From Gemmatimonadota bacterium (GTDB taxonomy: Bacteria; Latescibacterota; UBA2968), in NCBI GenBank assembly GCA_009838845.1, contig VXRD01000089.1:1-62677 (forward strand): 62,677 bases of DNA. Direction: 5' to 3'. Below the pieces are notes generated by a model that saw only the letters and a program-made list of their open reading frames with translations, did not search any database and was not told where the DNA came from. The stretch's first letter is position 1. The number at the start of each line of letters is the position of its first letter. The position numbers and the translations under genes were made by a program. Shown piece by piece: positions 32,564 through 50,116 of this stretch.

Positions 32564-33424
32564 ATGTTCTACCGGCATCTTTTGATCATTCTCAGTGTCT
32601 GCCTCGCCAGCTATGGCGAATGCGACTCAGGTGCTCATAAGAAGGGGGAGGGTATAACGATTCCGGATATCTACCTGCGTGCGGTGATTGAGGATTCTTT
32701 GAACAAGGCGAGAGGGGAAGCGATTACTGCGGCTGAGATGGCGACTTTGACGCGTCTTGAAGCACCGAATTCAAGGGTTCGCGATTTGACGGGGATTGAG
32801 TACGCGACCGAACTGACGGTGCTGAATCTCGGCGATGTATTTATAAATGGCAACCGGATCAATAGCAATGAGATTTCGGATATTTCGCCACTGTCGGGTT
32901 TGGTCAAGCTGACGGAGTTGTATATCCATCGCAATCAGATATGGGATATTTCGTCGCTGTCGAATTTAACGGAGTTGGAAAAACTGGATGTTAGTGCGAA
33001 TTTTCATATTTCCGATATTTCACCGCTGTCGGGTATGACTAAACTGAGGACGCTGTATCTCTATACCAATGAGATTTCGGATCTCTCGCCATTGTCGGAT
33101 TTGACCAATTTGAGGTGGCTGAGTTTGAGTAATAATCTGATCTGGGATATTTCTGACCTGGCGAGTTTGACAGAGTTGAGGGGGTTGGCTCTAAATATCA
33201 ATGCCGTGTCGGATATTTCTCATCTGTCGGGTATGATCTATATGGAGAGGCTGAATATTTGGGATTGCGATATTGTGGATTTATCGCCTCTGGTGGAGAA
33301 CGCGGGATTGCGTGGGGAAAAGGATTTTATCGATGTGAGGGATAATCCCCTGAGCGAGACATCACTGAACACGCATATTCCGACGCTTCGGGAGAGAGGG
33401 GTCAGGGTGAGGCTGGATAATTGA
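32564..33424 (+). CDS. Secreted leucine-rich-repeat protein, copy A
   Basis: A 286-residue protein with a signal peptide (MFYRHLLIILSVCLAS) and possibly a lipid-anchored Cys at about 20. After a conserved N-cap (ITIPDIYLRAVIEDSLNKARGE, then AEMATLTRLEAPNS) come about six 22-residue repeats of the SDS22/internalin type (ISDISPLSGLVKLTELYI). It ends RGVRVRLDN. The N-cap module recurs in the protein at 59738. Probably a surface ligand-binding protein. AGGACAATTCTT precedes the ATG. It is tandemly duplicated at 33440-34300. Confidence 0.88.
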   Translation: MFYRHLLIILSVCLASYGECDSGAHKKGEGITIPDIYLRAVIEDSLNKARGEAITAAEMATLTRLEAPNSRVRDLTGIEYATELTVLNLGDVFINGNRINSNEISDISPLSGLVKLTELYIHRNQIWDISSLSNLTELEKLDVSANFHISDISPLSGMTKLRTLYLYTNEISDLSPLSDLTNLRWLSLSNNLIWDISDLASLTELRGLALNINAVSDISHLSGMIYMERLNIWDCDIVDLSPLVENAGLRGEKDFIDVRDNPLSETSLNTHIPTLRERGVRVRLDN

Positions 33425-33439
33425 CGGAGGACAGTTCCC

Positions 33440-34300
33440 ATGATTTATCGATATCTTTTGATCATCCTCGGTGTCTGTCTCGCCATTTATGGCGCGTGCG
33501 ATGCAGGTGCTCATAAAAAGGGCGAGGGTATAACGATTCCGGATATCTACCTGCGTGCGGTGATTGAGGATTCTTTGAATAAGGCGAGGGGAGAGGTGAT
33601 TACTGCGGCTGAGATGGCGACGTTGACGCGTCTTGAAGCACCGAATTCAAGAATTCGCGATTTGACGGGGATTGAGTACGCGACCGAGCTGACGGTGCTG
33701 AATCTCGGCTATGTATTGACGAATGGCGGTCGCGTCAATAGCAATGGTATTTCGGATCTTTCTCCTTTGTCGGGTTTGGTCAAGCTGACGGAGTTGAACC
33801 TTTTTCGCAATACAATAGCTGATCTTTCGCCGCTGTCGAATTTGACAGAGTTGAGAGTTCTGGACCTCAGTGGGAATTCCTATATTTCGGATCTTTCGCC
33901 GCTGTCGGGTTTGACGGGGATGAGAACGCTGCATCTCTATACCAATGATGTTTCGGATCTCTCGCCGCTGTCGGGTTTGACCGAGTTGAGGTGGCTGGAT
34001 TTGAGTAGTAATCTGATCTGGGATCTTTCGCCGCTGTCGGGTTTGACCGAGTTGGGTGGATTGGCTGTGAATAACAATGCGGTCTCGGATCTTTCTCCTT
34101 TGTCGGGTTTACCCAGGCTGAAAAGGGTGCATGGTCGGGATTGCGATGTTTCGGATTTATCGCCTCTGGTGGAGAATGCGGGATTGCGTGGCGAGAACAG
34201 TTTGATCGATTTGAGGGATAATCCCCTGAGCGATGTTTCGATTAATAAGCATGTTCCGGTGCTTCAGGAGAGAGGGGTCAGGGTGAGACTCAGTAACTGA
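33440..34300 (+). CDS. Secreted leucine-rich-repeat protein, copy B
   Basis: A 286-residue tandem paralogue of the preceding gene, with the same length. The signal peptide and N-cap (residues 1-90) are nearly identical at DNA level, and the LRRs have diverged more (DLSPLSGL instead of DISPLSGL in most units). The ...GACDAG signal end resembles a lipobox. The gap between copies is 15 bases and includes the same GGAGGACA RBS, so duplication included the leader. It converges on the deacetylase gene, six bases away. Confidence 0.88.
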   Translation: MIYRYLLIILGVCLAIYGACDAGAHKKGEGITIPDIYLRAVIEDSLNKARGEVITAAEMATLTRLEAPNSRIRDLTGIEYATELTVLNLGYVLTNGGRVNSNGISDLSPLSGLVKLTELNLFRNTIADLSPLSNLTELRVLDLSGNSYISDLSPLSGLTGMRTLHLYTNDVSDLSPLSGLTELRWLDLSSNLIWDLSPLSGLTELGGLAVNNNAVSDLSPLSGLPRLKRVHGRDCDVSDLSPLVENAGLRGENSLIDLRDNPLSDVSINKHVPVLQERGVRVRLSN

Positions 34301-34306
34301 GGGCAC

Positions 34307-35308
34307 TCAGGCACTCGGGTCTTGAAAGACGAGTTCCATGCCGTCTGTGACAGTGACCGTGATTTGCAATTTTCTCGGTTCTGTCAGGTGTGCGAGGTGG
34401 GGTTGTCCGTCGATCCATACGTTGGGATAGCGACACCAGGGGGCGGGTACGTCGGCGCAGAGGGTGAGCGTGCGGCAGGTGACGCGGTCGCTCAGGTTGT
34501 TGAGGTGAAGGCGGTAGTGCTTTTGGGTTTGCGTGTCGGACAGTATTTCGATTTGGGTGTGGCGTCTGGTCTGGTGGTAGAAGAGTACTTCTTCGGGTAC
34601 GGCGCACCAGACTTTGTCTCCGCCTTCTGTGAGGATGGTTTCAAATCTTTTTCTGAGTTGTGGATGCGAGCAGTCTTTGTTGGGGTGGATGGGTTTTTCC
34701 AATGGGCAATGGCAGTAGTCGATGATCCAGCCGTTTTGCGCTTGTGCATGGCGGATGTTGCGGAATGGGTCGTATTCGCTGAAGAATGGGGCGTAATACT
34801 GTTCGTGCAATGCCGTGCGGTTGATCCAGAAGAGCGGGGTGTTTGGACGGTTGAGGGCGTCAGTCAGGCTCATTGCGCCGAGGTAGCCGTGTTTGCGACA
34901 GGCGTCGAGGACGTGGTCCGACATGTTGGCGTTGTTGCCGGGTGCGCAGTAGAGATCGACGGGTGCGTCAATGGCGGCTTCGAGTACGTCTTTGGCGCGG
35001 CCAATTTCCAGGTCAACCATGTCGGGCTGTATGAGTTCATGGCTATAGGAGTGATTGCCAATTCCCCAGCCCCGGGCGAGGAGGTCTTTGAGTTCGTCGG
35101 CGTTCATGTGGCGATAGCCATTGTAGCTGGAGTTGCCTATGTTGCGCGTTTCGCCCAGTTGCCCTACGACGACTTCTACATGTCCCGGGATGCCGTATTC
35201 TTCGTGGATGGGGATTGCGAATTGGTGCAGGTCAACAAGGGCTTCGTCATAGGTGATGGAATAGACCCAGGTTTTATTGTATTTCCAGGGGCATATTGTG
35301 AGGGCCAT
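34307..35308 (-). CDS. NodB-type polysaccharide deacetylase-like protein, last gene of a nine-gene operon
   Basis: A 333-residue carbohydrate-esterase-4-like protein. The expected first Asp is in YSITYDEALVD (D21), and the zinc-binding His pair is GNHSYSH (H86, H90). A later stretch (LYCAPGNNANMSDHVLDACRKHGY) matches the family's third motif. The C-terminal ~80 residues are a beta-sandwich-like extension. There is no signal peptide, so it probably acts on a cytoplasmic substrate. The ATG at 35308 has GGAG upstream; it lies 14 bases after the isochorismatase-like gene. The open frame extends far upstream, but that part is antisense-type noise. Confidence 0.82.
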   Translation of the reverse strand: MALTICPWKYNKTWVYSITYDEALVDLHQFAIPIHEEYGIPGHVEVVVGQLGETRNIGNSSYNGYRHMNADELKDLLARGWGIGNHSYSHELIQPDMVDLEIGRAKDVLEAAIDAPVDLYCAPGNNANMSDHVLDACRKHGYLGAMSLTDALNRPNTPLFWINRTALHEQYYAPFFSEYDPFRNIRHAQAQNGWIIDYCHCPLEKPIHPNKDCSHPQLRKRFETILTEGGDKVWCAVPEEVLFYHQTRRHTQIEILSDTQTQKHYRLHLNNLSDRVTCRTLTLCADVPAPWCRYPNVWIDGQPHLAHLTEPRKLQITVTVTDGMELVFQDPSA

Positions 35309-35322
35309 GTTTTTCTCCAGTA

Positions 35323-36081
35323 TCAGGCTGAAAACGCCTGGATGAAATCGCGAAATGTGGTGCTGTATCCCAGTTGCCATTCGAAGATGTGTGTGCCGTA
35401 ACGGGTAGCCAATTTTTCGGGATAGGTGCTGGGGGTTTCCACGCCGACTGTTCCGTCGCGCATGAGGATGCATTGATAACCGCGGGCGAGCATGTCTCTG
35501 GCTCCGCCTTCGGCGCCGAGGATGCACATGTTGGTTGCAAATCCCGTGTAGATGAGGGTTGTGATGTCGCGCGTTTTGAGGTAAGTGTCGAGTACGTCGG
35601 TGTAAAAGACGAGGGGTTCGTCTTGTATTGGGGAGACGATGGCGGCCCGTTTCATGTTTGCAAGTGGCGATTTTGTGAGGTAGTTCGGGCCATGTGCGCG
35701 GTTTCGCATGGTTTGTGCGCGATTTTCGGGCTCCGGTTGTGATGTTTTTTTGCGTCGGGAAGGGATGTGGGGATATTGATGCGCCATCCAATCGGTTTCG
35801 ACATGGCAGACGGGCATTCCGATTTTGCGCGCGATGTCCATGGCCGGGCGTATGACTTCGGCCATGATGCGTGCGGCTTCGGCGGTTGCCTGGGGCCAGC
35901 CCATGCCCACGCAGTAGTTGGGGTCGATTGCCGGACCATCTGGACAGCCGATGTTCCAGCAGTGCAGGCCGATGAGGGCGGTTTTTGCAACGGGTAATTC
36001 GAGGCGAACAGATTCGTAACCGGGGGCATCAATGGGCAGGGCGCGATAATACCGGGCGTTCAAGGCGTATGTGTGTGACAT
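35323..36081 (-). CDS. Isochorismatase-fold cysteine hydrolase with altered catalytic residues
   Basis: A 252-residue isochorismatase-like protein. The Cys nucleophile region is well conserved (YTGFATNMCILG, C186), as is the oxyanion cis-peptide context. The Asp usually found in the first strand (ALLVIDxQ) is replaced: TALIGLHCWNIG has His40 at that place. The Lys usually preceding the third strand is not visible (DEPLVFYTDVLDTYL). The enzyme may be inactive or use different chemistry. A spacer of six bases separates it from the aminotransferase gene, so it is within the nine-gene operon. Confidence 0.82.
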   Translation of the reverse strand: MSHTYALNARYYRALPIDAPGYESVRLELPVAKTALIGLHCWNIGCPDGPAIDPNYCVGMGWPQATAEAARIMAEVIRPAMDIARKIGMPVCHVETDWMAHQYPHIPSRRKKTSQPEPENRAQTMRNRAHGPNYLTKSPLANMKRAAIVSPIQDEPLVFYTDVLDTYLKTRDITTLIYTGFATNMCILGAEGGARDMLARGYQCILMRDGTVGVETPSTYPEKLATRYGTHIFEWQLGYSTTFRDFIQAFSA

Positions 36082-36087
36082 GGGGTG

Positions 36088-37332
36088 TTAGACTCGATTC
36101 TGGTCGGCGACGGCGGCGACTATTTGGGCGACGAGGTCGCAGTGTTCGGGCTGGTATTTTTCGCAGAATGTGGTCCAGCGGATGAAATTGTCGAGAAAGT
36201 CCCGGGCATTGGGACAGGTGTTTGCGTTGTATGTGTAGGTGTGGGATGCCGGGGGTTTGGAGAAGGGATGGAGGTGTTTTTCGGCTTTGTCCGTTAAAAA
36301 GGGCAGTGCGGCGGGCATGAGATAGTATTTGCCGAGTCCCGCTCCGGTGAGTCCTGCTTCGGCGACTTGCTGGGCAAAGGATTCGGCGTCGCATGTAAAG
36401 GCATTGGGATCGATGTTGAATCCGGCCATCCAGCAGGAATAGGTTTCCATGTAATCTGGTATGGATAGCGGGATTATACCGGGAATTTCGGCGAGTTTGT
36501 CGGTGATGAGGCGAATCATGCGGTCGATGTGCGCAACGGCCGGCCGGATGATTTCGAGTTGTGCAAGGGTGATGGCGGCGGTCGATTGGGTTATGCGGAG
36601 CGCGTATCCATTTACGGCGTGTACGCGCCCCAGTCCCTCAACCATTTGCCCGCCTCTGCTTTGACCGACGAACCGAATTTGTTCGGCGAGTTTATCGTCA
36701 TTTGTAATTACACAGCCGCCGACGTCGGAGCCGAGTGTTTTTTCGGAATCGAATGAGAAGGCGGCGACATCGCCCAGGGTGCCTGCAAGGCGGCCTTTGT
36801 ACGTGCCAAATACGGCTTGACATACGTCTTCAATGACGGTCAGGCCGTGTTTTTTTGCCAGGGCGTGGATGGGGTCCATGTCGCATATGAGGCCGGTTAT
36901 GTGGACGGCGAGAATGGCTCGCGTGCGGTTGGTAATACAGGGTGCGATGGTGCGGGCGCTGATGAGCGGTGTGCCGGGTTCGGTGTCGGGAAAGACCGGG
37001 ATGTAGTTTTCTTTTAGCAGGCCCATGACCGTGCCGTAGTCGGTGATGGGCGATACGATGATTTCATCGCCGGGTTCGAGATTGAGTGCGGCTGCAAGTA
37101 TGTTGAGGGCTGCGGTGCATCCGGGTGTGCCGATGCAGTGTTTGATGCCCATTTCGCTTTCGAAAGCGGCTTCAAATCTCCGAATCATGTCGCATTGCAG
37201 ACCCGAGGAGACGACTTCCTGGAGGTATGTCAGGCAGTTTGGACCCATGGTGCGCGGAAAGGGTTGGGGCAAGCTGCCCGTGATTCCTTCAAATGCTTCG
37301 GCACCGTATTTTGCGCGTTCTTGTATAGACAT
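36088..37332 (-). CDS. DegT/DnrJ/EryC1/StrS-family aminotransferase
   Basis: About 414 residues. A PLP-dependent fold-type I enzyme of the sugar-aminotransferase family. Motifs: GTPGCTAALNILAAAL (phosphate binding), VIEDVCQAVFGTYKGRLAGTLGDVAAFSFDSEKTLGSDVGG with the PLP Asp and the likely Lys in SEKTLG. Family members aminate keto-sugars attached to nucleotides, or related carbonyl compounds. The frame extends to 37539, but the ATG at 37332 with AGGTGG upstream lies one base after the preceding stop, giving tight translational coupling. It supports a role in making or breaking an amino-sugar-like substrate. Confidence 0.88.
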   Translation of the reverse strand: MSIQERAKYGAEAFEGITGSLPQPFPRTMGPNCLTYLQEVVSSGLQCDMIRRFEAAFESEMGIKHCIGTPGCTAALNILAAALNLEPGDEIIVSPITDYGTVMGLLKENYIPVFPDTEPGTPLISARTIAPCITNRTRAILAVHITGLICDMDPIHALAKKHGLTVIEDVCQAVFGTYKGRLAGTLGDVAAFSFDSEKTLGSDVGGCVITNDDKLAEQIRFVGQSRGGQMVEGLGRVHAVNGYALRITQSTAAITLAQLEIIRPAVAHIDRMIRLITDKLAEIPGIIPLSIPDYMETYSCWMAGFNIDPNAFTCDAESFAQQVAEAGLTGAGLGKYYLMPAALPFLTDKAEKHLHPFSKPPASHTYTYNANTCPNARDFLDNFIRWTTFCEKYQPEHCDLVAQIVAAVADQNRV

Positions 37333-37333
37333 G

Positions 37334-39319
37334 TTACCACCTGTGTACGTAATGCCCTTGTCCGGAAAACCACAGGGCATCGACCGCGAACGACAGCGCG
37401 ACCCCCAGGCCATAGCCGGTGAGCAAACCGATGAAGAAGGGCTGAAAACGGCGGTAAGCAGAAACACCGCCGAAGTGCAGTACAAACAATTTGAAAGCCC
37501 AAATAATAAAAATTGAGACCTGATTGCTGCGGGCGACATTGGTGCTGCAAACCGTCAGGCCAATGGGATGCAAAGGCCACCAGGAGAAGCGATATTGCAA
37601 GAATGTGAGCAGTCCCATCAGCGCTGCGCCGCCGCCAAAAAATCCCATTCTTTGCCAGTCGGGACCAAAGGGATTGACAATTTTGCTGAGGATGACCGGA
37701 TAGATTCGGTTGGTTCCCGATTTGAGGGGAATATCGTTGAAATTGAAGGCCCCTCTTTCATAACTCAGGGGAATTACATAGAAAATAAATGTTAGACAGC
37801 CGACGAGCAATCCCAAAAAGACTGCGCTGAGGAGTTTGCGATGGTCGGTTTTTATCCATTCAGACAATTTGGCAATGTGGATCAACGCGGGCATAAACAG
37901 ACCGCGAATATAGTTGGTGAGCGCGTAGGAGAGGGCGATCGATGTCATTGTGGGCGTTGAAAGGGCGTGTGCGCCCAGAGAGTAAATGGTGAAAATCTGT
38001 GCGCTGATCGGGGCCTGCACAAAGAGGATGCCGGTTTGAGCGACGACACGCGCTACGCCTATGTAAATGACAAAGGTAGCCGCAGTGTAAAAGGCGATCG
38101 CTGAAAAGGCCATGCCGGATTGGTATAACCAGATAATAATAAAAAGCGTTCCGAAAAACAGGCCCAAAATAGCGTTGCGGTAAGACATGAGTTCCCCGCT
38201 GTCGTCGATGGGGTATTGCGGATTTACGGCTTTGAGGAAGACGGCTTTGAGGTGGTGGCGAGAGATGTACAATCCCCAAAAAACGAAAAAACACAGTGCG
38301 CCAAAACACAACCAGCCCGCGCCGGAAAAGTGAAGCGCGCCATAGGGGTCGCCGCGGCCGGGCATATCAAATCCGATGCGATTTAAGAGGCCACCTGGAA
38401 TTTGGTAAAATAGGAGATGGAAGAACCACATGCTGAATAGCACATCGAGGTTGGCAAAATAGGCAAAGCCCATGATATAGATATTGAATCGGGGGAAGAT
38501 GGGAGGATAGCCTTTGGCAAAATAGAAAAAGGGAAGTGTCAGCTTAATATCGGGTACAAGAGGAAAGAAGAAATGGAGGATATTATAGGAGAGGATGCCG
38601 GATGACAGTGCGAATCCCGCCCAGTACAGACCCCTGTATTGAAGGGATTTATCGCGTGTGGATTCTGAGGAAACGATATGCAGTGCCGGACTCAATAGGG
38701 GAAATGTCAGGCGTTCATTTTCAGACCACTGGCGGCGCAAGATGACTGCAATACAGGCCGAGACGAAGACAATGGCAACGATAAACACAAGCCACCAGAA
38801 AAGAGGGGCAACCCATATAGACCAGGGGATTGGCATGCCGGGCAGCGTGCCTTCGTAAAAATCGCGCATTGCACCGCCGGTATTGGGCGGTACCAAATAG
38901 GTGGGGAGGTGGGCGTGGAAGAATTCAGCCCAGCGGTTTTCTGGCGTGGCAAAATAATAGGGTGTGGCAATGGTTCCCAGGAGAAAACCGAGCACGCCTG
39001 AGCCGGGTACCACGCCGCCTGCAAGCCCCATTGCGATAATGACCAGTTGTTCAGAGGGGGTTAAAGAGAAGGCGGGGTTCAGGGTTGACAGCAGGGGGTT
39101 GAGCAGGTAGCGGATGAGGAGAAAGAGGATGAATACAGCGACTGGAAAATGGCTGAGGTTCATGCGCGAAGCCCGCACGATATATTCTGAATAGGGTATC
39201 CAGAGGTTGATCAGAACAACGAGCGCGAGACCCAGTACAACGGCGCGAAGACTCACGCCACTTGTCAGGTACTCGGACAGGGATTCTGACCTGTTTTGTG
39301 GGGCTGGCGTTTTTGCCAT
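37334..39319 (-). CDS. Large polytopic membrane protein, DUF6785/DUF6784-like
   Basis: A 661-residue integral membrane protein with about 12-14 hydrophobic segments (for example LRAVVLGLALVVLINLWIP, FPVAVFILFLLIRYLL, IWVAPLFWWLVFIVAIVFVSACIAVIL). A GLAGGVVPGSGVLGFLLG motif follows the third segment. The layout resembles the oligopeptide-transporter-like DUF6785/6784 proteins common in planctomycetes, Poribacteria and Latescibacteria. It is likely the inner-membrane carrier of the nine-gene operon. It lies 23 bases after the GWxTD gene and one base before the aminotransferase start. Confidence 0.75.
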   Translation of the reverse strand: MAKTPAPQNRSESLSEYLTSGVSLRAVVLGLALVVLINLWIPYSEYIVRASRMNLSHFPVAVFILFLLIRYLLNPLLSTLNPAFSLTPSEQLVIIAMGLAGGVVPGSGVLGFLLGTIATPYYFATPENRWAEFFHAHLPTYLVPPNTGGAMRDFYEGTLPGMPIPWSIWVAPLFWWLVFIVAIVFVSACIAVILRRQWSENERLTFPLLSPALHIVSSESTRDKSLQYRGLYWAGFALSSGILSYNILHFFFPLVPDIKLTLPFFYFAKGYPPIFPRFNIYIMGFAYFANLDVLFSMWFFHLLFYQIPGGLLNRIGFDMPGRGDPYGALHFSGAGWLCFGALCFFVFWGLYISRHHLKAVFLKAVNPQYPIDDSGELMSYRNAILGLFFGTLFIIIWLYQSGMAFSAIAFYTAATFVIYIGVARVVAQTGILFVQAPISAQIFTIYSLGAHALSTPTMTSIALSYALTNYIRGLFMPALIHIAKLSEWIKTDHRKLLSAVFLGLLVGCLTFIFYVIPLSYERGAFNFNDIPLKSGTNRIYPVILSKIVNPFGPDWQRMGFFGGGAALMGLLTFLQYRFSWWPLHPIGLTVCSTNVARSNQVSIFIIWAFKLFVLHFGGVSAYRRFQPFFIGLLTGYGLGVALSFAVDALWFSGQGHYVHRW

Positions 39320-39342
39320 AGGTCCTGGTAGCTTCTCGCAGC

Positions 39343-40713
39343 TTATGGCGGAGAAAATGCCTCAGCTGGCAGCGATGTCGGGTCGGTCTGATCGCCGATA
39401 GCTTGTTGATCTCGCCAGTTGGGATTGTAGCGTTCTCCTGGCATGGTGGCGTGGATCATTTCATAAACACCGTCTCCAAGGCGATCCAGAAATACAAACT
39501 CGTAGTAGTTGAGATGTTCGTAGGTCCAGATTTCAAAGGCTTTGCCCGTGGCACTGAATGGGTTGCGCTCGATGTCTGTCGGCAAGCCGTATTTGATGTG
39601 GATGCGCCCTTGGTCGGTATCCGATCCCTTTTGTCCGGGACGCGCAGAGAAGTGTTCGTCTGCATAGCGAATGCGCCTGAAATGTTCTGTGGCAAATTCG
39701 TTTTCAGGTGTTAGAGGCGTTGGGTCGCGTTTTTTCCAGAAGGTGAGAATAAATTCTACTTTTTCTGCGGCGCTCAGGGTATCATAAGTTTCGCGTTCGG
39801 TTTTTGTGGCGATGTAGCGGATTTGTTTGTAATAGCGTTTTAAGGAGGCGGGGTCTGTTGCCAGTGCGGGTTTTTGTATAGAAAAAGCCCGCTGGCGCGT
39901 GGTCATTTTGCCCGTGCCGTTATCGCGGGCAGTGATTTTCAGTACATACTGCCCTGGGGTAACCCCCTGGAGGTCAAGGGATTCGGTTTTGATTGTGGTT
40001 GCGCCGGGTTTGCGGTAGCGCGCCGAGGGAAAGTTTTTGATCCGCTGTCCCGCGGTATCCAGGAGGGCATAGGCGAGGTCGAAAGTTGCAGCGCGTCCCT
40101 CGCCTGTGGCAAGGCCGTAGAGTTCAAAGTAGATGTTTAAGGTCGTTGCGATTGACCTGCGCGCGTTGGGAACGATTTTGAACCCGTTCTTGACCAGATT
40201 TCTGGTGGTCTGTGTGTTTGCAGCGTCAATACGATGGGCAAACTGGATGTCGCTTATGGTCGGGGCGGCGTTGTCAAATTCGGGCATTGTAAAGGCGAGT
40301 TCACAGGTGCCTTCGGCATTGGCCTGCAAATCTTTCAGGCGAATGTGAACTCTATAAGTGCCGGGCGCAATTCTGAAGCTCAATGCCTCTGTAATCATTT
40401 GATCGCGCAGGTCTGTTCCCGCGTCTGTGACGATCTGTTTTTCCCATTTGAAGGGCATGCTATCGCGTTTGGAAAAAAAGGTGGCTTCTACGCGATAGTC
40501 AGCCCGCTGGTGGTCGTTCAATTCACTGAAGGTGAGGTGCTGACACGGGCACTGGAGATACAGTTCGCCGTAGTTCAGGCTGTCTGGCGTATCAAAACCC
40601 GCTCTGTCGATCCAAAATGGAATGGCGCCTCGCGCCCTGACGGGAATATCTTCTCCCGAAATTGGCGCGAGGAGAGCCTGTGCGAGACACAGCGACAAAA
40701 GGATATATTTCAT
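39343..40713 (-). CDS. GWxTD domain-containing secreted protein
   Basis: A 456-residue protein with a signal peptide (MKYILLSLCLAQALLAPISG). The middle is beta-rich. Residues ~300-430 form the GWxTD domain: AEKVEFILTFWKKRDPTP, FRRIRYADEHFS, then the glycine-rich TDQGRIHIKYGLPTDIERNPF and AFEIWTYE. The domain is widespread in FCB bacteria, but its function is unknown. It lies between the PorV-like and membrane-transporter genes of the nine-gene operon (gaps of 8 and 23 bases), so an envelope role with those proteins is likely. Confidence 0.88.
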   Translation of the reverse strand: MKYILLSLCLAQALLAPISGEDIPVRARGAIPFWIDRAGFDTPDSLNYGELYLQCPCQHLTFSELNDHQRADYRVEATFFSKRDSMPFKWEKQIVTDAGTDLRDQMITEALSFRIAPGTYRVHIRLKDLQANAEGTCELAFTMPEFDNAAPTISDIQFAHRIDAANTQTTRNLVKNGFKIVPNARRSIATTLNIYFELYGLATGEGRAATFDLAYALLDTAGQRIKNFPSARYRKPGATTIKTESLDLQGVTPGQYVLKITARDNGTGKMTTRQRAFSIQKPALATDPASLKRYYKQIRYIATKTERETYDTLSAAEKVEFILTFWKKRDPTPLTPENEFATEHFRRIRYADEHFSARPGQKGSDTDQGRIHIKYGLPTDIERNPFSATGKAFEIWTYEHLNYYEFVFLDRLGDGVYEMIHATMPGERYNPNWRDQQAIGDQTDPTSLPAEAFSPP

Positions 40714-40721
40714 ATCGCAAC

Positions 40722-41663
40722 TCAGAAGGAACCGCCGATATTTATCCGATAGGTGGGATCCAATAACTCGCCCATGTCGCTATACGCCATGTCCAGGGTG
40801 AAGGGGCGCTCATTGACCGAGTATTTGAGGCCAAAACCGAGTGCAAAACTCTCGGTATCGTTATTGAATTTCCAGCCACCGCGCAGTGCGAGAATATTGT
40901 GCAACCAGAGTTCGGCACCCGCGTGAATGCGGCCTTCAAAATCGACAAAGAAGGCATTTTCCGCAGCTACGGTAAGCGAAACTGGATCGCCCAGATTGCC
41001 GTAGAGTTCCATTGAAGCCGCGATGCTGTAGATGAGGGGGCGGAAGGCCGTATCGTCGATGATGACGATATCCTGTCCGAAATTCTTCAGCGTCATGGCC
41101 AAACGCAAAGACCGGAACCCGGTGTAAAAGAGCGTGCCTATGGAGATATCCAGACCGCTGTTGACATCGGTATAGAGCGTCTCTTGAATATACCGGCCCT
41201 GGGCACCAAATGACAATCGGTCGGTGAATTTGATGGCATAAGTCAGGCCAATGGCAAAGTCGCTGTCTTTAATGATATTGCCCGTGCCATTGGGCTGGAA
41301 AATGGTGGTTTCTTCAAATTCGTCGGGTGTGAAAGACAAGACCGTGATGCCTATGGTCTGCGTGCCCAGGTTATAGGCAAAAGCCCCCGAATAAAATTTG
41401 GAATTGACCATCCACTTGTTGTATCCCAGGCTAAAAGCGGCGCGGTCGATTTGCGTGATGCCCGCTGGATTCCAGAACATGGCATCGATACCCGTGCCCA
41501 CTGCGGTGTACGCATCGCCCATGGCAACTGCGCGCGCGCTTTGGGAGACTTTGAGGAAGGTGAATCCGGCATTGCCGAGTTTTTTGAGCCCGGCCTCTGC
41601 GCCTGTTGCCGATAGGGCAAAGGCAGTGAAGACCAGGACGAGTGTTGTTTGTAAGCGTTTCAC
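40722..41663 (-). CDS. PorV/PorQ-family outer-membrane protein
   Basis: A 313-residue protein with a signal peptide (about 1-24). It opens with the diagnostic AGFTFLKVSQSARAVAMGDAYTAVGTGIDAMFWNPAGI motif of the PorV/PorQ (UPF0164) family, a FadL-like 14-strand barrel. It ends in an aromatic Phe (INIGGSF). In Bacteroidetes, PorV shuttles T9SS substrates to the attachment complex. Here it is encoded directly after a protein with a T9SS-like C-terminal domain (16-base gap) and next to a TonB receptor. Confidence 0.9.
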   Translation of the reverse strand: MKRLQTTLVLVFTAFALSATGAEAGLKKLGNAGFTFLKVSQSARAVAMGDAYTAVGTGIDAMFWNPAGITQIDRAAFSLGYNKWMVNSKFYSGAFAYNLGTQTIGITVLSFTPDEFEETTIFQPNGTGNIIKDSDFAIGLTYAIKFTDRLSFGAQGRYIQETLYTDVNSGLDISIGTLFYTGFRSLRLAMTLKNFGQDIVIIDDTAFRPLIYSIAASMELYGNLGDPVSLTVAAENAFFVDFEGRIHAGAELWLHNILALRGGWKFNNDTESFALGFGLKYSVNERPFTLDMAYSDMGELLDPTYRINIGGSF

Positions 41664-41679
41664 GTGTTCCTCCTTTGCA

Positions 41680-43989
41680 CTATTTGATGATCATAAACAT
41701 CCCGGTCTGCTTTTTGCCCGTTTCGCCAGCAACCAGAGATTCTACCACGTAGTAGTAGCGTCCGGCGGCGACGCGCCCGGAAAATGTGCGCGTGCGCTGG
41801 TCCCAGGTGGCTTCGCCCCTGTCGGGGTCGGTGGTGCGCTGTGGGTGGTTGATGACGGCGATCAAATCTCCGGAGATTGAAAAGATGGAGATTTTTGCTT
41901 TTCGGGGTATGTTGACAAAACGAATATTGTTGCTGGCAGGTGGATACCTGTGGTCGGCATCTCCCGGGTCGTCCCGAAAGGGATTGGGAACTACGCGCAC
42001 CTGTTCGGATAGCGCGTCTTTTTCAGGGGTTGCAATCACGATGGGGCTTCTGGAGACATTCATGCGCTGTTCGGGTGCGCTGTGTCCGGATTCCAAAGAT
42101 GGAATGGATCGGCCTGTGCCGTTCCAGTCGCTGTGTCCGGAATCGTAGGTGCGCACCGAATACCAGTACCTGAAACCGGGTACGGATTCTACGTCTCGAT
42201 AGGTGTAGGTTCCCCCATCGGCGTAGGAGATCGTGGGCGATGTCCAGGGCGTGTTGGGTGCGTATTCCGTGTTGGATGGGGTAGTTCCTTTGGGGATATC
42301 AGCCACGAGTTCCCAGGGTCCCAGGTGGTTGTTTTGGGTGCGATAGACCCGATAGCCCTGCACATCCAGGGCTTCATCGCCCGTATAATCCGGGTCAGGG
42401 GACTTTTCAGCCCGGTCAGACCATGTGATGGCGTTGTTCCCGTTTTCGTCGCTATCTACAAATACGGCAACATCGGGAGGCGCGTCTGGCAGGTCGTAAT
42501 TGTTGTCGTAGGCAAATTGCGCGCGTTCCAGGTGGAGGGCCATTGCCCGTTCGCCGTCGGCGACCTGGCTCTGGTTGCCCTGGCGCGCCCATTCGTAAAC
42601 ATCCATGGGACTGCCGCCGGGACCGGCAAATTCGGCACCCGATCCGGCGACCCAGGCGACCACGACTTTGGCTTTTTCACCGGGGGCGAGATCATAAGGT
42701 CCGTAGGTGTGTGCGAAGGTTACGCGGCTGACTTTGGAGGGATTGTCCTGGACGGCTGGAACTCTACCTGAACCAATGAATTCATTGTAGAGATTCTCGT
42801 CGCTATTCAGGTTGGTAATATCTGGGGTGTCCCAATCGAAGCGCCCGTAGATCTCCCACCAGTTGACGAAGGCGGGCTGGTCCATTGTTTTGGGGGCCAC
42901 GTAGGTCTCGTTGTCGTTGGTGAACCCGTCGGTGGGATCGTAATCGAGGGGTGCCAGGCCGATGTACTGGAAAGCCATGAGTTCGCCGTGGTTGAGCTGG
43001 CCCCGGTTGATATAGGCTGACTTGGCGTTGTTTTTATCGAAAGGCTGGCCCGTGTCGTCTCCGGCAGAAGAGAGCAGATCACTGTCATAGACATAAGAGA
43101 TTTTCTTGCCACGGAGATCGGCCAGGCCATCGAAGTTGGACGCTTCGCTGTATTTGTACCAGTCGTCCAGGATGATCGGGTCGGAATACGCCCACGGTAC
43201 GGTTTGGTTCTGCCATCGGTGTCCGGCCCACGATGGGGCGAGGTTGTTCACAAAGGCGAAATAGACATCCTTGTGATCAACGGGTAACCCCGCATCGGGT
43301 GTGCCGTCTCCGTTGTTATCTCCGGTGTTTTCGATGATGACTTCGAGAATAATAAAGTCGTCGTAGTCCGGATAACTCCACGCTCTGGCTTTGCGGGTAA
43401 TGGTGAGGCCGCGTTCTGTCGTCCATTTGGAGATGACGATTTCTTCGGCCTCATTGTCGTTGGGAATGTAGCGTCCGTAATCGTAGTTGTGGATTTCGAT
43501 GGGTTCGTCGGCCACCAGTGCAGGTGCTCCGGGCCAGTAATTGGCCGTGGTATTGCCCGTGAGGGGCGACCGGGTTTCAATGCCCAGACCGCGTTCTGGA
43601 CCCGAAGCCGCATCGTAGATCATTTCAAAGATGTCGTCGGTATTGTAGCGCGGGTTGGAGATCGATACATTGTGTGATCCCCCTTCTCTGGTGAAAACCC
43701 AAAAACCCTCGCCCTGGCTGGTGTGATAGCGGTGGTCGTTGTCCTGCCCAATGATCCAGTATTCGGTAAAATCGCGTTCGCCAATGCCCCAGCCGGGATA
43801 CATTAAGCCGGCATCTGCACCCAGACGGCTGTCGTCGCGCAGGCCCTGGGTGCCGGTATTGCGAAAGGTAGCCCAGAGCTTGCCCCGGGTCAGGTGGCGT
43901 TGAAGTTCGGGTTGTTGGGCACAGATTTCGGATGCAAATACCAGCACACACAGAACGCCCATCCATCCGATGTGTTTTAATGGATACAT
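41680..43989 (-). CDS. Large secreted protein with T9SS-type C-terminal sorting domain
   Basis: A 769-residue protein. A signal peptide (MYPLKHIGWMGVLCVLVFASEICAQ) precedes an Asp/Asn/Trp-rich extracellular part and an Fn3-like stretch near 545-640 (QGYRVYRTQNNHLGPWELVADIP, PGFRYWYSVRTYD). The last ~85 residues match a type-A T9SS sorting domain: VRVVPNPFRDD, IRFVNIPRKAKISIFSISGDLI, WDQRTRTFSGRVAAGRYYYVVES, MFMIIK. It is probably exported and surface-anchored or released. It lies 16 bases upstream of the PorV-like gene. Confidence 0.87.
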   Translation of the reverse strand: MYPLKHIGWMGVLCVLVFASEICAQQPELQRHLTRGKLWATFRNTGTQGLRDDSRLGADAGLMYPGWGIGERDFTEYWIIGQDNDHRYHTSQGEGFWVFTREGGSHNVSISNPRYNTDDIFEMIYDAASGPERGLGIETRSPLTGNTTANYWPGAPALVADEPIEIHNYDYGRYIPNDNEAEEIVISKWTTERGLTITRKARAWSYPDYDDFIILEVIIENTGDNNGDGTPDAGLPVDHKDVYFAFVNNLAPSWAGHRWQNQTVPWAYSDPIILDDWYKYSEASNFDGLADLRGKKISYVYDSDLLSSAGDDTGQPFDKNNAKSAYINRGQLNHGELMAFQYIGLAPLDYDPTDGFTNDNETYVAPKTMDQPAFVNWWEIYGRFDWDTPDITNLNSDENLYNEFIGSGRVPAVQDNPSKVSRVTFAHTYGPYDLAPGEKAKVVVAWVAGSGAEFAGPGGSPMDVYEWARQGNQSQVADGERAMALHLERAQFAYDNNYDLPDAPPDVAVFVDSDENGNNAITWSDRAEKSPDPDYTGDEALDVQGYRVYRTQNNHLGPWELVADIPKGTTPSNTEYAPNTPWTSPTISYADGGTYTYRDVESVPGFRYWYSVRTYDSGHSDWNGTGRSIPSLESGHSAPEQRMNVSRSPIVIATPEKDALSEQVRVVPNPFRDDPGDADHRYPPASNNIRFVNIPRKAKISIFSISGDLIAVINHPQRTTDPDRGEATWDQRTRTFSGRVAAGRYYYVVESLVAGETGKKQTGMFMIIK

Positions 43990-44013
43990 GTTATTGCTCC
44001 TCAGATAATGAAA

Positions 44014-47000
44014 TTAAAATCCAATTTGGAGACCTATGCTGATCTCTCGAGGCCGACCGGCCCAGCGGTGGTATTCTTTGGTATCGCCGTAGTTGATATA
44101 GTTTTTGTCCGTGGGTTTGGGCATGTCCATGCCGTAGAGATACCAGAGTTCGGCCTGTGGGCCCTGATTGTGTCGATCAAACCAGGGACCGCGCCAGAAA
44201 TATTCGGTGGCCGGGTCGCGCTGGTTGAAGAAGTTGTACACGTTCATAAACAGGGTGGCTTCGGTTCGACCTGTGCGGAAGCGTTTTTCCAAAGACAGGT
44301 GGGTCTTGGTTTCCATAGGTCCAAATCGCTCGACATTGCCCTGTGTGGGATGCGGAATGCTGATTCGGCGTCCCGTTTTCAGGGTGTTGATCACATTGAG
44401 CCTGAAACCGCCGAGGGCTGGGCCGTAATGCATGGGCGTTTCATACGTAAACGCGATTTTCATGGTGCCGCGTCGGTCGCCAAAACCAGCGGTTTCTGCG
44501 CGGCCCCCACGACCCGCACTGCGATCAGAGGTGGTGTTGCGGGTGAAGTAAAAGACGCCTGAAAGATTTTCCACTTCCTGAATTTCGCTGTCGGTCAACG
44601 GATTCCAGTCGGGGTTGGTGCCCTCTCGGATGGTCTGGATATAGCGGTCTGCCTCGGCGCCGATGTCCTGAATTTGCTGCGGTGTGAGCGGTACTTTTGC
44701 TTCTGATCCATCGTCGCTGGCATTTACTACGCCGTCGCCATTGGTGTCTTTGGTGTGCTGGATAAAATAGAGATCTGATGCGATAAATTGCGAGTTGGGA
44801 AAGTAGATGATCCGGTTGATTCCCGCGTTGCCTCCCGACTGCCACTGGTGGTTGTAGGCGACCTGGAAGGAGAAGTTCTGGCTGAAGTCCTTTCGGAGGC
44901 TCATTTCAAATCCCCGATTGTCTGTAAAAACATAGCCCAGAGGTGTGTTGCGTCCCCTTTGGCTTTTGCGACTGGGGTCACGCCAGTGGGCTCTGCCGAA
45001 TCGAACCTGACCATCTACGCTTTGCTGATAAGTCGTGAAGCTCAGGACATAGTCCTGATAGAAGTTCCAGTCTGTGCCCACCTCAAAATTGGTGGAGCGT
45101 TTGTAATCGAGGTGGGGATTGCCCGTGGTGGCTGGCTGGTTGTTTTTATTGAGCCATTCGGTATCGTCGATTTGGCCATTGTCGTTGAAGTCTTCTGGAG
45201 GGGCAACGCCGCGCCATTCGTAGGAATAGAGGTGCCAGAATCCAGGCATCTGGTGAAAGATGCCGTAGGAAAATCGAATGATGGCATTGGCCGTAATGGG
45301 GTGCGAAACGCCCAGGCGAGGACTCCAGGCTGATTTGGTGGATACAGAGGTGCGCGGCATAAATTTGCGCTGCCGAGACCAGGAGTTGGTCATAGGTGCT
45401 CCGCTCCAGGCATTGTTGGCAATTGGGGAGTAAAAATCGCCGTTGTGGTCGTGTCTGTCGTAGCGGATGCCCAGGTTGACGATGATGCCTTCAAATTCCA
45501 TTTTGTCCTGGAGGTAAAAGGCGGATTGGATGGGGTTAATGGGTTCGCCCATTTCGTAGGGCACGCCCGCGAGTTGATAGCGCGATTTGCCCGCCTGCGG
45601 CCAGTTGATCTGGTTCCACCAGTAGGTGTGTCGCGTCAGATCAATGCCGGTTTTGATAAAGTGGTTCTTGTTGATCTGGCTGGAATAATCGAGTTTGAAG
45701 TTGAGGCGGGCGCGGTGGTCGTTGATCCAGATGGAGACCCGTCTGGGGCCAATGGTGAATACCCCGTCCTGATCTTTTCTGAGCGGTTCTGTAATGCCGC
45801 CGCCAAATTGGCTGGTGACACCCGGCACATTGGTTGTGTCTGTGGCGTCGCGGTAATAGGATAGCCGGGCTTCGTAAAAGGTTTTGTTGCTCAGGGTATG
45901 TGTGAGGGATATGTATGCCAGGTCGTGTTTGACGTTGGCGATGCCTGCACCGGCTTCGTTTGCGGGAAGAAAGATGTCGATGCCCTGGAGTTCTCGACCA
46001 ACGGTGCGCTTGACGCCCTGTACCCAGCTTTCCCCCTCGCCGACCTGATAGGCTTCGTGACGTGCATAGACCCCGCCGACTTTAACTTTTATGTTGGATT
46101 GCACATCCCAGGCCAGTTTGTAGGTGCCTTTGATGTTGTAGGGCGATTCGATCCAGCGGGCGGTTTGTGGAGATGTTGAGACGGCCTGGTGGAAGATGCC
46201 GCGTTTGGTGGGAGAGGGAAAATGCGAGGCTTGTCCCTCGTGCTGTGCCGTGACAAAAAAGGAGGCATTTCCCAGCAATGGACCCGAGAGTGACCCATCG
46301 ACTTCATAACCGTGAATGCCCGTGTAGTCCGTGCGCTCGTGCGCCAGGCGGGTGATGTCGTCGCCCGTTCCCATCTGGCGGTCTGGACCGGGATCTGTGT
46401 ATGTTTCATTTTCCCAGGTCGCATCGCCCCATTTCATTCTGCCTTTGTGGATGGGGCTGTCATAGACATTGCCACCCCAGTGTTTTTTGCCCGGTGGAAT
46501 ATAAGTGAAGCCGCCTTTGCCGTGAAAATTTTTGCCGCCTTCTCGGGTGATGATGTGAATGGCGCCAGATGTGGCATTGCCGTATTCGGCTTCCATCCCG
46601 CCAGTGATGACGGTAATTTCTTGTACGGCGTCGCTGTTGACTCCGACAAATTGAACATCGCCCCGGGCAGTGCCCGCATCCATGACGACGCCATCCACAT
46701 AGACGAGTGTTTCCGAGTTGCCCCGGTTGCCCTGATAGCTGCCGCGAATGGCGGGTTCGTTGTTGTCGAGAGAGACGCCTGCCTGAAGGCTCATGAGTTC
46801 TGAGGTGCTTGCCGCTGTCGATAGCCGATCTATCGTATCACCACCCATGATGTATTTGCTCGTGGTTTTGTCTCTTTCTACGGGTGGGCGTTCAGCCACA
46901 ACTGTGAGTTCGGCCAATTCGACGGTGGTTTCTTTGAGTTGAAAGTTGAGAGGCGTGGTGAAGTCCGTTTTGACCGATACATCGCTCTGGGTTTGATTGG

Positions 47001-47235
47001 TATATCCGATAAGCGAAGCTGTGAGCGCGTATCGTCCCGGTAGAATATTGATGATAAAATAGCTGCCATCGGCATCTGCCACAGCGCCGAGTCGCGTGCC
47101 TTCTACGATCACATTGGCGCCGGGAAGCGGATTGCCCTGGTCGTCTTTGATGACACCGGCGATTTTACCCGTGGTGCCCGCATAGAGATGAGAGGCAAAA
47201 CACAGAAGTACGCATATCATAGCTATTCGTTTCAT
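44014..47235 (-). CDS. TonB-dependent receptor with CarboxypepD_reg N-domain
   Basis: A 1073-residue outer-membrane receptor. A signal peptide (to about 21) is followed by a carboxypeptidase-regulatory-like domain (IAGVIKDDQGNPLPGANVIVEGTRLGAVADADGSYFI). A plug (about 120-240; VSLDNNEPAIRGSYQGNRG, YGNATSGAIHIITREGG) and a 22-strand barrel ending with GLQIGF follow. SusC-like features (the CarboxypepD_reg domain) are present but no SusD is encoded nearby. It imports a ligand with energy from TonB; the ligand is unknown. It follows the barrel gene by 14 bases and precedes the T9SS-type protein by 24 bases. AAGGAGA lies before the ATG. Confidence 0.93.
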   Translation of the reverse strand: MKRIAMICVLLCFASHLYAGTTGKIAGVIKDDQGNPLPGANVIVEGTRLGAVADADGSYFIINILPGRYALTASLIGYTNQTQSDVSVKTDFTTPLNFQLKETTVELAELTVVAERPPVERDKTTSKYIMGGDTIDRLSTAASTSELMSLQAGVSLDNNEPAIRGSYQGNRGNSETLVYVDGVVMDAGTARGDVQFVGVNSDAVQEITVITGGMEAEYGNATSGAIHIITREGGKNFHGKGGFTYIPPGKKHWGGNVYDSPIHKGRMKWGDATWENETYTDPGPDRQMGTGDDITRLAHERTDYTGIHGYEVDGSLSGPLLGNASFFVTAQHEGQASHFPSPTKRGIFHQAVSTSPQTARWIESPYNIKGTYKLAWDVQSNIKVKVGGVYARHEAYQVGEGESWVQGVKRTVGRELQGIDIFLPANEAGAGIANVKHDLAYISLTHTLSNKTFYEARLSYYRDATDTTNVPGVTSQFGGGITEPLRKDQDGVFTIGPRRVSIWINDHRARLNFKLDYSSQINKNHFIKTGIDLTRHTYWWNQINWPQAGKSRYQLAGVPYEMGEPINPIQSAFYLQDKMEFEGIIVNLGIRYDRHDHNGDFYSPIANNAWSGAPMTNSWSRQRKFMPRTSVSTKSAWSPRLGVSHPITANAIIRFSYGIFHQMPGFWHLYSYEWRGVAPPEDFNDNGQIDDTEWLNKNNQPATTGNPHLDYKRSTNFEVGTDWNFYQDYVLSFTTYQQSVDGQVRFGRAHWRDPSRKSQRGRNTPLGYVFTDNRGFEMSLRKDFSQNFSFQVAYNHQWQSGGNAGINRIIYFPNSQFIASDLYFIQHTKDTNGDGVVNASDDGSEAKVPLTPQQIQDIGAEADRYIQTIREGTNPDWNPLTDSEIQEVENLSGVFYFTRNTTSDRSAGRGGRAETAGFGDRRGTMKIAFTYETPMHYGPALGGFRLNVINTLKTGRRISIPHPTQGNVERFGPMETKTHLSLEKRFRTGRTEATLFMNVYNFFNQRDPATEYFWRGPWFDRHNQGPQAELWYLYGMDMPKPTDKNYINYGDTKEYHRWAGRPREISIGLQIGF

Positions 47236-47249
47236 TCGCGGGTCTCCTT

Positions 47250-47951
47250 TTAATTTAAGTTGAATTTGATACCGGCACCGATATCGATGAGGTTAAAGGG
47301 GTATGTTTTTTCAATGCCCCAAATGAGAAAGGGACGCAATTCTCCCATCACGATATTGTAGCGCGCGCGCACATCTAACGCGGCTTTGTCTCCCAGGCCA
47401 ATTTGAACCCCGCCGCCAAAGCTGGCACTGAAAGCTGTGCGCGTGTCATTAACAGGTTCCAAGAGGATGTTTGGATCGGGAGGCGCACCGGCACCCGAAG
47501 GCGTTTGACCGGCAAAGATCAGACCGCTGACTTTGCTGGCGTAATCGTGCAGGCCCGCGCCAAATGTGAGATAGGTCGTTGTGCCCTGGCCAAATCCCTG
47601 TTCCCGCAATGCAAATAGCCAGTTGGCGTGGATGCTGTTGATGGTCATGTTGGCTTCGGCCTGTGGACTGGTGTATTCTTTGCCGTCGCTGAAGCTGAAG
47701 GTGCGCGTTTCAAGGCTGCCGTCGTTAAAGCGGGCGTGGTGAAATTCCACTTCGACCATCTTGCGCTTGTGATAGATATAGTGCGCTGTACCCCCAAACT
47801 TGGTACCGCTGTCGTACATGTCTTTGAAGTTGAAGAGGGGAATGTAGAAGTCAAAAAAACCGCCAGCGCCGAAAGCTCCTTCTCCTGCGGTTGCCTGCGC
47901 GTTTGGCAACAGGGCCGCAACGCATAAAATCAAGAGTAATTTTTTCAACAA
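47250..47951 (-). CDS. Predicted outer-membrane beta-barrel protein, first gene of the nine-gene operon
   Basis: A 233-residue protein with a signal peptide (MLKKLLLILCVAALLPNAQATA). A small barrel follows: GGFFDFYIPLFNFKDMYDSG, HYIYHKRKMVEVEFHHARF, TTYLTFGAGLHDYASKV, ending in GAGIKFNLN. The initiation codon is TTG (47951) with AAGGAG seven bases upstream. Two tiny open frames in its leader start after a strong AAGGAGG. It is 14 bases upstream of the TonB receptor and may be an accessory porin or ligand protein of that system. Confidence 0.75.
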   Translation of the reverse strand: MLKKLLLILCVAALLPNAQATAGEGAFGAGGFFDFYIPLFNFKDMYDSGTKFGGTAHYIYHKRKMVEVEFHHARFNDGSLETRTFSFSDGKEYTSPQAEANMTINSIHANWLFALREQGFGQGTTTYLTFGAGLHDYASKVSGLIFAGQTPSGAGAPPDPNILLEPVNDTRTAFSASFGGGVQIGLGDKAALDVRARYNIVMGELRPFLIWGIEKTYPFNLIDIGAGIKFNLN

Positions 47952-47962
47952 AAACTCCTTTC

Positions 47963-48012
47963 TCAGCTTGCTGTGTTAAAGGGATTTCCGAAACGCAATA
48001 GCATCAGTCCAT
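47963..48012 (-). other. Possible overlapping leader minicistrons
   Basis: On the minus strand a strong AAAGGAGG precedes ATG GAC TGA (48012-48004). The TGA overlaps a second ATG (TGATG) opening a 13-codon frame that ends at 47963, 11 bases before the TTG start of the barrel gene. This could be a regulatory leader or merely a standby RBS. Confidence 0.3.
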
Positions 48013-48049
48013 TGTGACCTCCTTTCGAGAAATACGAAGCGTTGTATTG

Positions 48050-48583
48050 TCAATTGGACAATGCTTCGAAGGATAGCGTATCAGCCACTGATTTTATTAC
48101 GGTGGCAATGCGGGCGATGTCTGCGATTTGTTGTGCGTCAATGCCCAGTTTGTTCAATTGCGATGCGTGTGCGTTGACGCAAATACCACATGCGTTTACC
48201 ACACTTGCCGAGAGGCTCCACGCTTCGAATAATGCGCGATCGACACCGCCGTGGGTCAGCACGGCATTCATTCGCAATTTGGGCGGCTGTTTTTTTACGT
48301 CGTTATCTCGAATGAGATCGGTGAATTTATACCATACATTGGTCATGCTCATCATGGCAGCGGCAGATTTCACGGCTTTTATGTGTTGTTCGTCCATAAC
48401 AGCCTGTGCGTCTTCGATGATGTTCTGGATCACCTGTTCATTTTTCGATACCAGTGCTGCGGTGAGTGCCGATCCCCAGGCCATTGCCGGGTCGAGACGC
48501 GATGCGGATATGACCGATCCCAGGTTCAACCGAATGTCCCGCGCATAGTCGGGCATTGCCGATCGCAGATTATCTATTCCCAT
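48050..48583 (-). CDS. AhpD/carboxymuconolactone-decarboxylase-like protein
   Basis: A 177-residue all-helical protein. The AhpD-like redox motif is ACGICVNAHASQL with Cys-x-x-Cys and a downstream His, and a preceding Glu (FEAWSLSASVV) completes the proton-relay pattern. It is likely a peroxidase-type thiol protein. The frame is open to 48664, but the ATG at 48583 with GGGAG upstream fits the fold; the part upstream of it carries a terminator hairpin. It lies 98 bases before the barrel gene, so it may also belong to the nine-gene operon. Confidence 0.87.
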   Translation of the reverse strand: MGIDNLRSAMPDYARDIRLNLGSVISASRLDPAMAWGSALTAALVSKNEQVIQNIIEDAQAVMDEQHIKAVKSAAAMMSMTNVWYKFTDLIRDNDVKKQPPKLRMNAVLTHGGVDRALFEAWSLSASVVNACGICVNAHASQLNKLGIDAQQIADIARIATVIKSVADTLSFEALSN

Positions 48584-48603
48584 AAAATCTCCCGTTATGA
48601 AGT

Positions 48604-48641
48604 ACAAAACGCAGAGAACGGCATTGCTCTCTGCGTTTTGT
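48604..48641 (-). terminator. Long hairpin, probable terminator, copy 1
   Basis: ACAAAACGCAGAGA / TCTCTGCGTTTTGT is a 14-bp perfect stem. The central sequence CGCAGAGAA-GGCATTGC-TCTCTGCG recurs at 50117-50150. It terminates the tandem membrane-protein genes on the minus strand. Confidence 0.8.
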
Positions 48642-48671
48642 AATATAACTAAAATTCTGTGCAACTTTTAA

Positions 48672-49037
48672 CTATTCTTCACCGCCGCCACCATCACCGC
48701 CGCCATCACCAGACGCTAAGACGCGATTTAATACCCTCTTTGCGAATACGGTTATGACGCCGGCATACAGAGCGATAGTGATCGGATCGACGATGGCGTC
48801 CAGTTTCTCGCCTATTACCTGTATGTTGCTCAATACGTCCGCACCTGCAGCAGCACCGACCGCAAGCGCAACGACCAGGAAGGATGTCGCATCTTCAGCG
48901 TCAAGCGCCATCCCCCCGTACACCAGGCCCAGAATCACCAACGCGATCGACACAATATTTTCAGGAATCGCGCCGGCCGCCAAACCCTGAATAATCGCCA
49001 GAATGACGATCAGGGCAACAATAATTCTGACTACCAT
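48672..49037 (-). CDS. Small polytopic membrane protein, tandem paralogue 1
   Basis: A 121-residue protein with three or four hydrophobic helices. A conserved core reads GAIPENIVSIALVILGLVYGG, then LDAEDATSFLVVALAVGAAAGADVLSNI, then LDAIVDPITIALYAGVITV. A Gly/Asp-rich tail (GDGGGDGGGGEE) is present only in this copy. The family is unknown to me. GGGAGG lies five bases before the ATG. It is the last of three adjacent paralogues in the minus-strand order. Confidence 0.7.
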   Translation of the reverse strand: MVVRIIVALIVILAIIQGLAAGAIPENIVSIALVILGLVYGGMALDAEDATSFLVVALAVGAAAGADVLSNIQVIGEKLDAIVDPITIALYAGVITVFAKRVLNRVLASGDGGGDGGGGEE

Positions 49038-49542: not shown

Positions 49543-49869
49543 TTAACTCTTGATGCGGTTTATTCCCCTCTCCACGAGTATGGCTATGACACCGGCATAC
49601 AAGGCGGTGGCGATCGGATCGACGATGGCGTCCAGTTGGGCACCTATCCCCGGGATGTTGCTCAATACGTCCGCACCTGCAGCAGCGCCGACTGCAATCG
49701 CAACGACCAGGAAGGCCGTCGCGTCCTCAGCGTCAACCGCCACTATCGCGTAGAGTAGTCCCAGTATCACCAGCGCGAGCGGCACAAGTCCCCCAGGGAT
49801 TGCGTCGGGCGCCAGGGCCTGCACAATCGCGAGGATGATGACCAGGACAATAATATTTCTGCTTGCCAT
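49543..49869 (-). CDS. Small polytopic membrane protein, tandem paralogue 3
   Basis: A 108-residue paralogue with AIPGGLVPLALVILGLLYAIVAVDAEDATAFLVVAIAVGAAAGADVLSNIPGIGAQLDAIVDPIATALYAGVIAI. The frame is open to 49923, but the ATG at 49869 with GGAGG is homologous to the other copies. It is the first of the three in the transcription direction. All three share an upstream motif around TTCTGGGAGG, so the duplication included the leader. Confidence 0.7.
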   Translation of the reverse strand: MASRNIIVLVIILAIVQALAPDAIPGGLVPLALVILGLLYAIVAVDAEDATAFLVVAIAVGAAAGADVLSNIPGIGAQLDAIVDPIATALYAGVIAILVERGINRIKS

Positions 49870-50116
49870 TTCTACCTCCCAGAATGTGGTTGTGTCACGG
49901 CTTGCGCTATCGCGCAGCCGCAACGGTTACCGACGGAATGCTACAAGATGCACCATCCCCGTCATGAAAAAGGTGAAAATATTTCCCTTTTTCTTATTGA
50001 TGAATGTAGTATTTCTTATGTTAAAAAATGTAAACAAAGTAGCAGTGTCAAGAGAATTCCCACTCGCTCAGTAAAAAAATTCGCTTATCTATCTATAAAA
50101 TTTCCCGTATAAATAC

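Follow-up and report, generated by a model that had tools for sequence, protein, structure and literature searches.

Does an unbroken run of genes on one strand serve a single pathway? The question is raised by a locus of a sponge-associated Latescibacterota MAG (5.75 Mb, 98% complete), of which we analysed 62,677 nucleotides of an 82.7-kb contig (hereafter the window). Nine ORFs between 34307 and 47951 occupy the minus strand and are separated by 14, 24, 16, 8, 23, 1, 6 and 14 bases, counted from the barrel gene, and a tenth gene of the same strand, CMD, is found 98 bases upstream of this block (Table 1). A sequence-only reading had described this layout and proposed that the nine genes bind, import and process one extracellular, possibly N-acylated or amino, saccharide. 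The layout is borne out by the ORF coordinates, and the families it named (barrel, TonB receptor, PorV-type, GWxTD, DUF6785, DegT, isochorismatase and NodB) by Pfam and NCBIfam. Consensus scans for promoters and terminators within the window gave matches at chance level only. Named relatives of the CTD protein at 96–97% identity come from Latescibacterota (WS3) MAGs, one of them labelled Gemmatimonadota. On either side of the ten genes lie a tandem pair of similar genes for small membrane proteins, upstream of CMD (48672–49037 and 49543–49923, the second without a Pfam match), and two tandem LRR-protein genes (32564–34300), whose copy number at this site, one or two, seems to vary among congeners.

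Table 1. Features of the ten-gene locus, in order of transcription.
Feature	Position	Strand	Basis
CMD (carboxymuconolactone decarboxylase-like), first gene of the old acceptor operon CMD-DegT-isochorismatase-NodB	48050..48664	-	PF02627; DegT 2 nt downstream in eight congeners
5' junction scar, ~25 nt, CMD stop to cassette leader; common to G008	48025..48049	-	junction sequences
Inserted six-gene uptake cassette: 73-nt leader and six ORFs, to the DUF6785 stop codon	37334..48024	-	site without cassette in eight congeners; homology to the other-locus block exactly 48024..37334
Core gene 1: small outer-membrane beta-barrel protein (OMP_b-brl)	47250..47951	-	PF13505; alignment of 10 paralogues
Core gene 2: TonB-dependent receptor, CarboxypepD_reg_2 and plug	44014..47235	-	Pfam/NCBIfam domains; paralogues
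Core gene 3: predicted surface protein, T9SS-like C-terminal domain (VVPNPF motif), 769 aa	41680..43989	-	no SusD or other Pfam domain
Core gene 4: PorV/PorQ-family outer-membrane protein	40722..41663	-	NF033709 160.6 bits
GWxTD-domain protein, probably periplasmic or secreted	39343..40713	-	TIGR04514 100.3 bits (cut-off 28)
DUF6785+DUF6784 membrane protein; model has an OPT/Yellow-stripe-like fold	37334..39319	-	Pfam and structure model
DegT/DnrJ/EryC1 aminotransferase, old acceptor operon	36088..37332	-	PF01041 209 bits
Isochorismatase-fold hydrolase, old acceptor operon	35323..36081	-	PF00857
NodB-type polysaccharide deacetylase-like protein (Polysacc_deac_1), old acceptor operon	34307..35308	-	PF01522 36.9 bits

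Comparison with congeners separates the run into two parts. All ten congeners searched (G005–G014) have NodB, at 94–96% identity in nine and 85% in G012, and in eight of them (G005, G006, G007, G009, G010, G011, G013 and G014) CMD is followed by DegT, isochorismatase and NodB and then by the same LRR gene, with no cassette in between. CMD is the true old neighbour of the DegT-isochorismatase-NodB trio, which is also kept without the cassette in more distant relatives; in G021, an order-level relative, the trio stands beside an AAT-family acyltransferase and an AXE1-like esterase. Sequence at the empty sites runs ...CAATGGTTAAACATGTCT..., with the CMD stop, 2 nt and the DegT ATG, and the window junctions read ...CCAATTGA, about 25 nt, the cassette and ...AGGTGGTAACATGTCT...; at nucleotide level the cassette therefore sits exactly between two ORFs. 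Among the congeners searched only the window genome and G008 carry it at this site, although most genomes compared are MAGs and calls of absence are limited by contig breaks.

The same six genes occur at another locus. In G005, G007, G011 and G014 they stand next to an amidohydrolase gene (547 aa; PF07969) and have their own upstream region, and in the latter three, the only ones in which this end is readable because the G005 contig ends inside DUF6785, a hairpin with a U-rich tail directly follows the DUF6785 stop (−12.4 to −15.9 kcal/mol, z −3 to −5). Since homology between window and donor runs from 48024 to 37334, neither the upstream region nor the terminator was carried along. In the window genome itself the genes flanking the donor locus adjoin on contig C58, 20-odd nt apart, with no cassette there and with the terminator of the amidohydrolase gene also gone; in G008 these flanks fall on separate contigs. 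At least the barrel and part of the TonB gene are seen beside the amidohydrolase gene at a contig end in G009, G013 has a partial cassette on a short contig, and no cassette copy above about 50% identity was found in G006, G010 or G012. Within the leader, at 47985–48024 (minus strand), and in the donor copies L224, L225, L226 and L228 there is a Shine-Dalgarno-like AAGGAGGTC, after which a two-codon ORF (ATG NNN TGA) follows in five of six leader copies, that of G008 having no start codon.

These comparisons show that the six-gene unit entered the CMD-DegT interval lacking the upstream region and terminator that it has elsewhere, leaving ten genes in one direction with no recognisable break. 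In the nine-gene ‘operon’, a transport cassette that was already complete has recently been fused with the older CMD-DegT-isochorismatase-NodB operon. The parsimonious reading is that the CMD-DegT site was empty in the ancestor and received the cassette once; the cassette may have moved by cut-and-paste or by copy-and-loss. The 5' scar is the same in the window and in G008, two independent MAGs, which makes one event most likely and argues against an assembly chimera. A simple sister relation of the two genomes was not recovered in single-gene trees of the trio, the CTD protein or the flank, so the insertion may have spread later by recombination between species. Horizontal transfer from outside the genus is unsupported, since the cassette (91–94% at nucleotide level) has diverged about as far as the rpoB region (92–95%). 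Neither a target-site duplication nor a mobile-element signature was seen in the junction sequences inspected, and GGTAA-like microhomology at the 3' joint and at some donor 5' ends is suggestive only. Common scar and empty sites together make this a clean natural case in which a whole transport unit, precisely inserted, has fused with an operon.

This history bears directly on the idea of a single pathway, in which the cassette would import an N-acylated or amino saccharide and DegT, isochorismatase and NodB would process it. The tiny gaps between co-directional genes and the presence of the same nine genes in G008 favour such a pathway, and the acyltransferase and esterase next to the trio in G021 would be compatible with amide or ester substrates. 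Within the genus, however, the trio is found without the cassette and the cassette without the trio, NodB or isochorismatase is near only one of the 54 other cassettes with long flanks (G008, where both follow), and no signal peptide is apparent by eye in the three enzymes; we therefore regard a common pathway as distinctly improbable. Failure of the nine genes to co-occur in relatives, which the earlier reading had named as grounds for its refutation, is in part what is seen, with only one other species examined carrying them together. Given the separate existence of the two parts, the proposal that all nine act on one saccharide is not supported. The enzymes of the older operon may simply be co-expressed with the cassette.

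The cassette itself belongs to a large family. TonB, CTD and PorV genes stand together about 17 times in the window genome, 11 times with the barrel first, and among the CTD genes of the GTDB set with adequate flanks 62 of 66 have TonB before and PorV after them (barrel in 55 of those 62), the four exceptions being second CTD genes in Marinimicrobia-type loci. Such loci come from Latescibacterota, one KSB1, Neomarinimicrobiota (Marinimicrobia) and one Gemmatimonadetes MAG. When the distance matrices of the core proteins are compared, r is 0.63–0.84 among the four of them (n=34) and lower, 0.32–0.44, against that of DUF6785 (n=18); the sequences have a common phylogeny, and the statistics are descriptive. 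The four core genes co-diverge and their linkage is strongly conserved, which bears out the earlier view of an uptake unit linking the outer-membrane receptor, a probable surface protein, PorV and the inner-membrane carrier. In the Neomarinimicrobiota-type loci L100, L108, L116 and L146 an extra protein of about 330 aa is encoded between barrel and receptor, and a second CTD gene lies downstream.

Behind the core, the cargo is exchangeable (sulfatases, PhyH, dehydrogenases, DUF6785). DUF6785 follows in 32 of the 54 long-flank loci and DegT in four, and sister cassettes link sulfatases, PhyH, GFO/IDH/MocA, SDR and zinc dehydrogenases, RraA, M20 and M60 peptidases, ceramidase-like and PTE-like hydrolases and an SSF symporter to the receptor pair. 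This cargo weighs on whether the cassette might instead be an export or surface-assembly unit of PorV, CTD and GWxTD proteins, possibly for gliding or a surface layer, with the TonB-type protein as a channel. In its favour, PorV and CTD proteins are of secretion type, the window genome encodes a great many GWxTD proteins, and some cassettes have no DUF6785; but the receptor has plug and CarboxypepD_reg domains, and the transporters and catabolic enzymes of many cassettes resemble those of nutrient-uptake loci, so that we think export an unlikely function. Elsewhere in the genome (C159:16886–20187, L070) another DUF6785 gene is followed at once by a second small GWxTD gene, so the link between GWxTD protein and carrier is not unique to the window cassette.

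How the CTD protein would reach the surface is suggested by its C-terminus and by the rest of the genome. The type 9 sorting domain ascribed to it from sequence is recognisable as a sub-threshold match but falls below all curated T9SS cut-offs (CHU_C 16.9 bits against 27), with E values of 0.03–0.04 to the C-termini of PorZ and PorU; a paralogue, L064, reaches 21.4 bits, and 16.2 against 23 for TIGR04183. A signal peptide is apparent in the protein; neither Pfam nor NCBIfam gives a match at 0.01, hence none to SusD, and a search of PDB sequences with the CTD profile gave nothing significant. A beta-supersandwich fold (glycoside phosphorylases, GH116) was discarded as a candidate for the CTD protein, at a TM of about 0.24 on a poor model (pLDDT 69.5). 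The neighbouring PorV/PorQ-family protein clears the NF033709 cut-off of 90 but does not reach the PorV equivalog (63 against 250). SprA (TIGR04189) scores above cut-off in all 21 genomes searched, on contig C147 in the window genome, which also encodes on C41 a PorU-like C25 protease (NF033707 244 bits against a cut-off of 420, with further pieces in one ORF). With SprA present and a PorU-like protease probable, export of the CTD protein by a T9SS is plausible, and its sorting by this route is weakly supported. No Latescibacteria paper with type IX secretion was found in the literature searched.

For the inner membrane, the AlphaFold2 model of the DUF6785/6784 protein is multi-helical (pLDDT 86.4), and its only significant PDB structure matches are to barley Yellow stripe 1 (7wst/7wsr; E 5e-8 to 1e-7, TM 0.60/0.65), the next match having a TM of 0.12. 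Sequence identity to Yellow stripe 1 is 13%, and the sequence has no OPT match in Pfam (at 0.01) or the PDB (at 1). On the strength of the model it is probably an OPT/Yellow-stripe-type transporter, which together with the TonB receptor would give a route across both membranes. No mention of DUF6785 or GWxTD was found in the literature searched. Metal chelates are common ligands of TonB receptors, and the sole significant matches of the model are to an Fe(III)-phytosiderophore transporter, which could point to a siderophore-like ligand taken up by the receptor and a chelate carrier in DUF6785. Yet the window genome holds 50 DUF6785 matches, on many contigs and many outside TonB cassettes, mostly with carbon-catabolic neighbours that suggest many organic substrates, and OPT members also transport glutathione and folates (PMC12687453). 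Metal-chelate uptake thus seems to us improbable.

The cassette is best read as SusCD/PUL-like, an uptake module in which type 9 secretion would bring the surface protein to its place. Gene linkage, co-divergence and type of cargo lead us to infer a SusCD-like role for the CTD-PorV-receptor set. A SprA/PorU-type secretion system would export the CTD protein, PorV (perhaps with the barrel) would keep it on the cell surface next to the TonB receptor, and there it would capture the ligand in the way that SusD works for SusC. Import to the periplasm would be the task of the receptor, and the DUF6785 carrier could take the ligand, or a product derived from it, on through the inner membrane. We give a probability of roughly two in three to the locus being a composite of uptake cassette and old operon with this SusCD-like, T9SS-served mechanism. 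The insertion of the cassette between enzyme genes shows the mixing of import modules with enzymes in little-known bacteria. In a 2015 account of Latescibacteria, sugars pass the outer membrane by non-specific porins, and TonB receptors serve vitamin B12 and iron (PMC4454575); our data suggest a larger role for TonB receptors.

Several known systems resemble parts of the cassette. The DUF6785/6784 model has the overall fold of the OPT family (Yellow stripe 1, oligopeptide transporters), while its sequence stands apart. As in a T9SS (SprA/PorV/PorU, CTD cargo), the window genome has SprA, PorV-family proteins, cargo of CTD-like type and probably a PorU-like protease, but here PorV genes exist in many copies, each tied in one operon to a single cargo gene and a single TonB receptor gene, and the CTD scores below known profiles. 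Like the SusCD PULs of Bacteroidota, the cassettes form many paralogous pairs of TonB receptor and surface protein per genome with their own cargo enzymes, including sulfatases. Unlike them, the receptor matches TIGR04056 (SusC) at 73.8 bits against 368 and in its N-terminal part only, the inner-membrane carrier is DUF6785, and instead of a SusD-family protein, none of which was detected here, the partner has an apparent signal peptide and a T9SS-like C-terminus, with a PorV-family gene following it. We tentatively propose, at a little short of even odds, a second, independently organised SusCD-like architecture outside Bacteroidota, in which a TonB receptor, a type 9-secreted, PorV-held ligand-binder and a small barrel, often with an OPT-fold carrier, would make up an exchangeable module moving between operons at gene-boundary precision. 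If receptor, CTD protein and PorV do form a complex, the uncharacterised DUF6785 family would gain a probable role as OPT-like carriers, and surface nutrient capture in these phyla would be carried out by T9SS-delivered proteins rather than by SusD lipoproteins.
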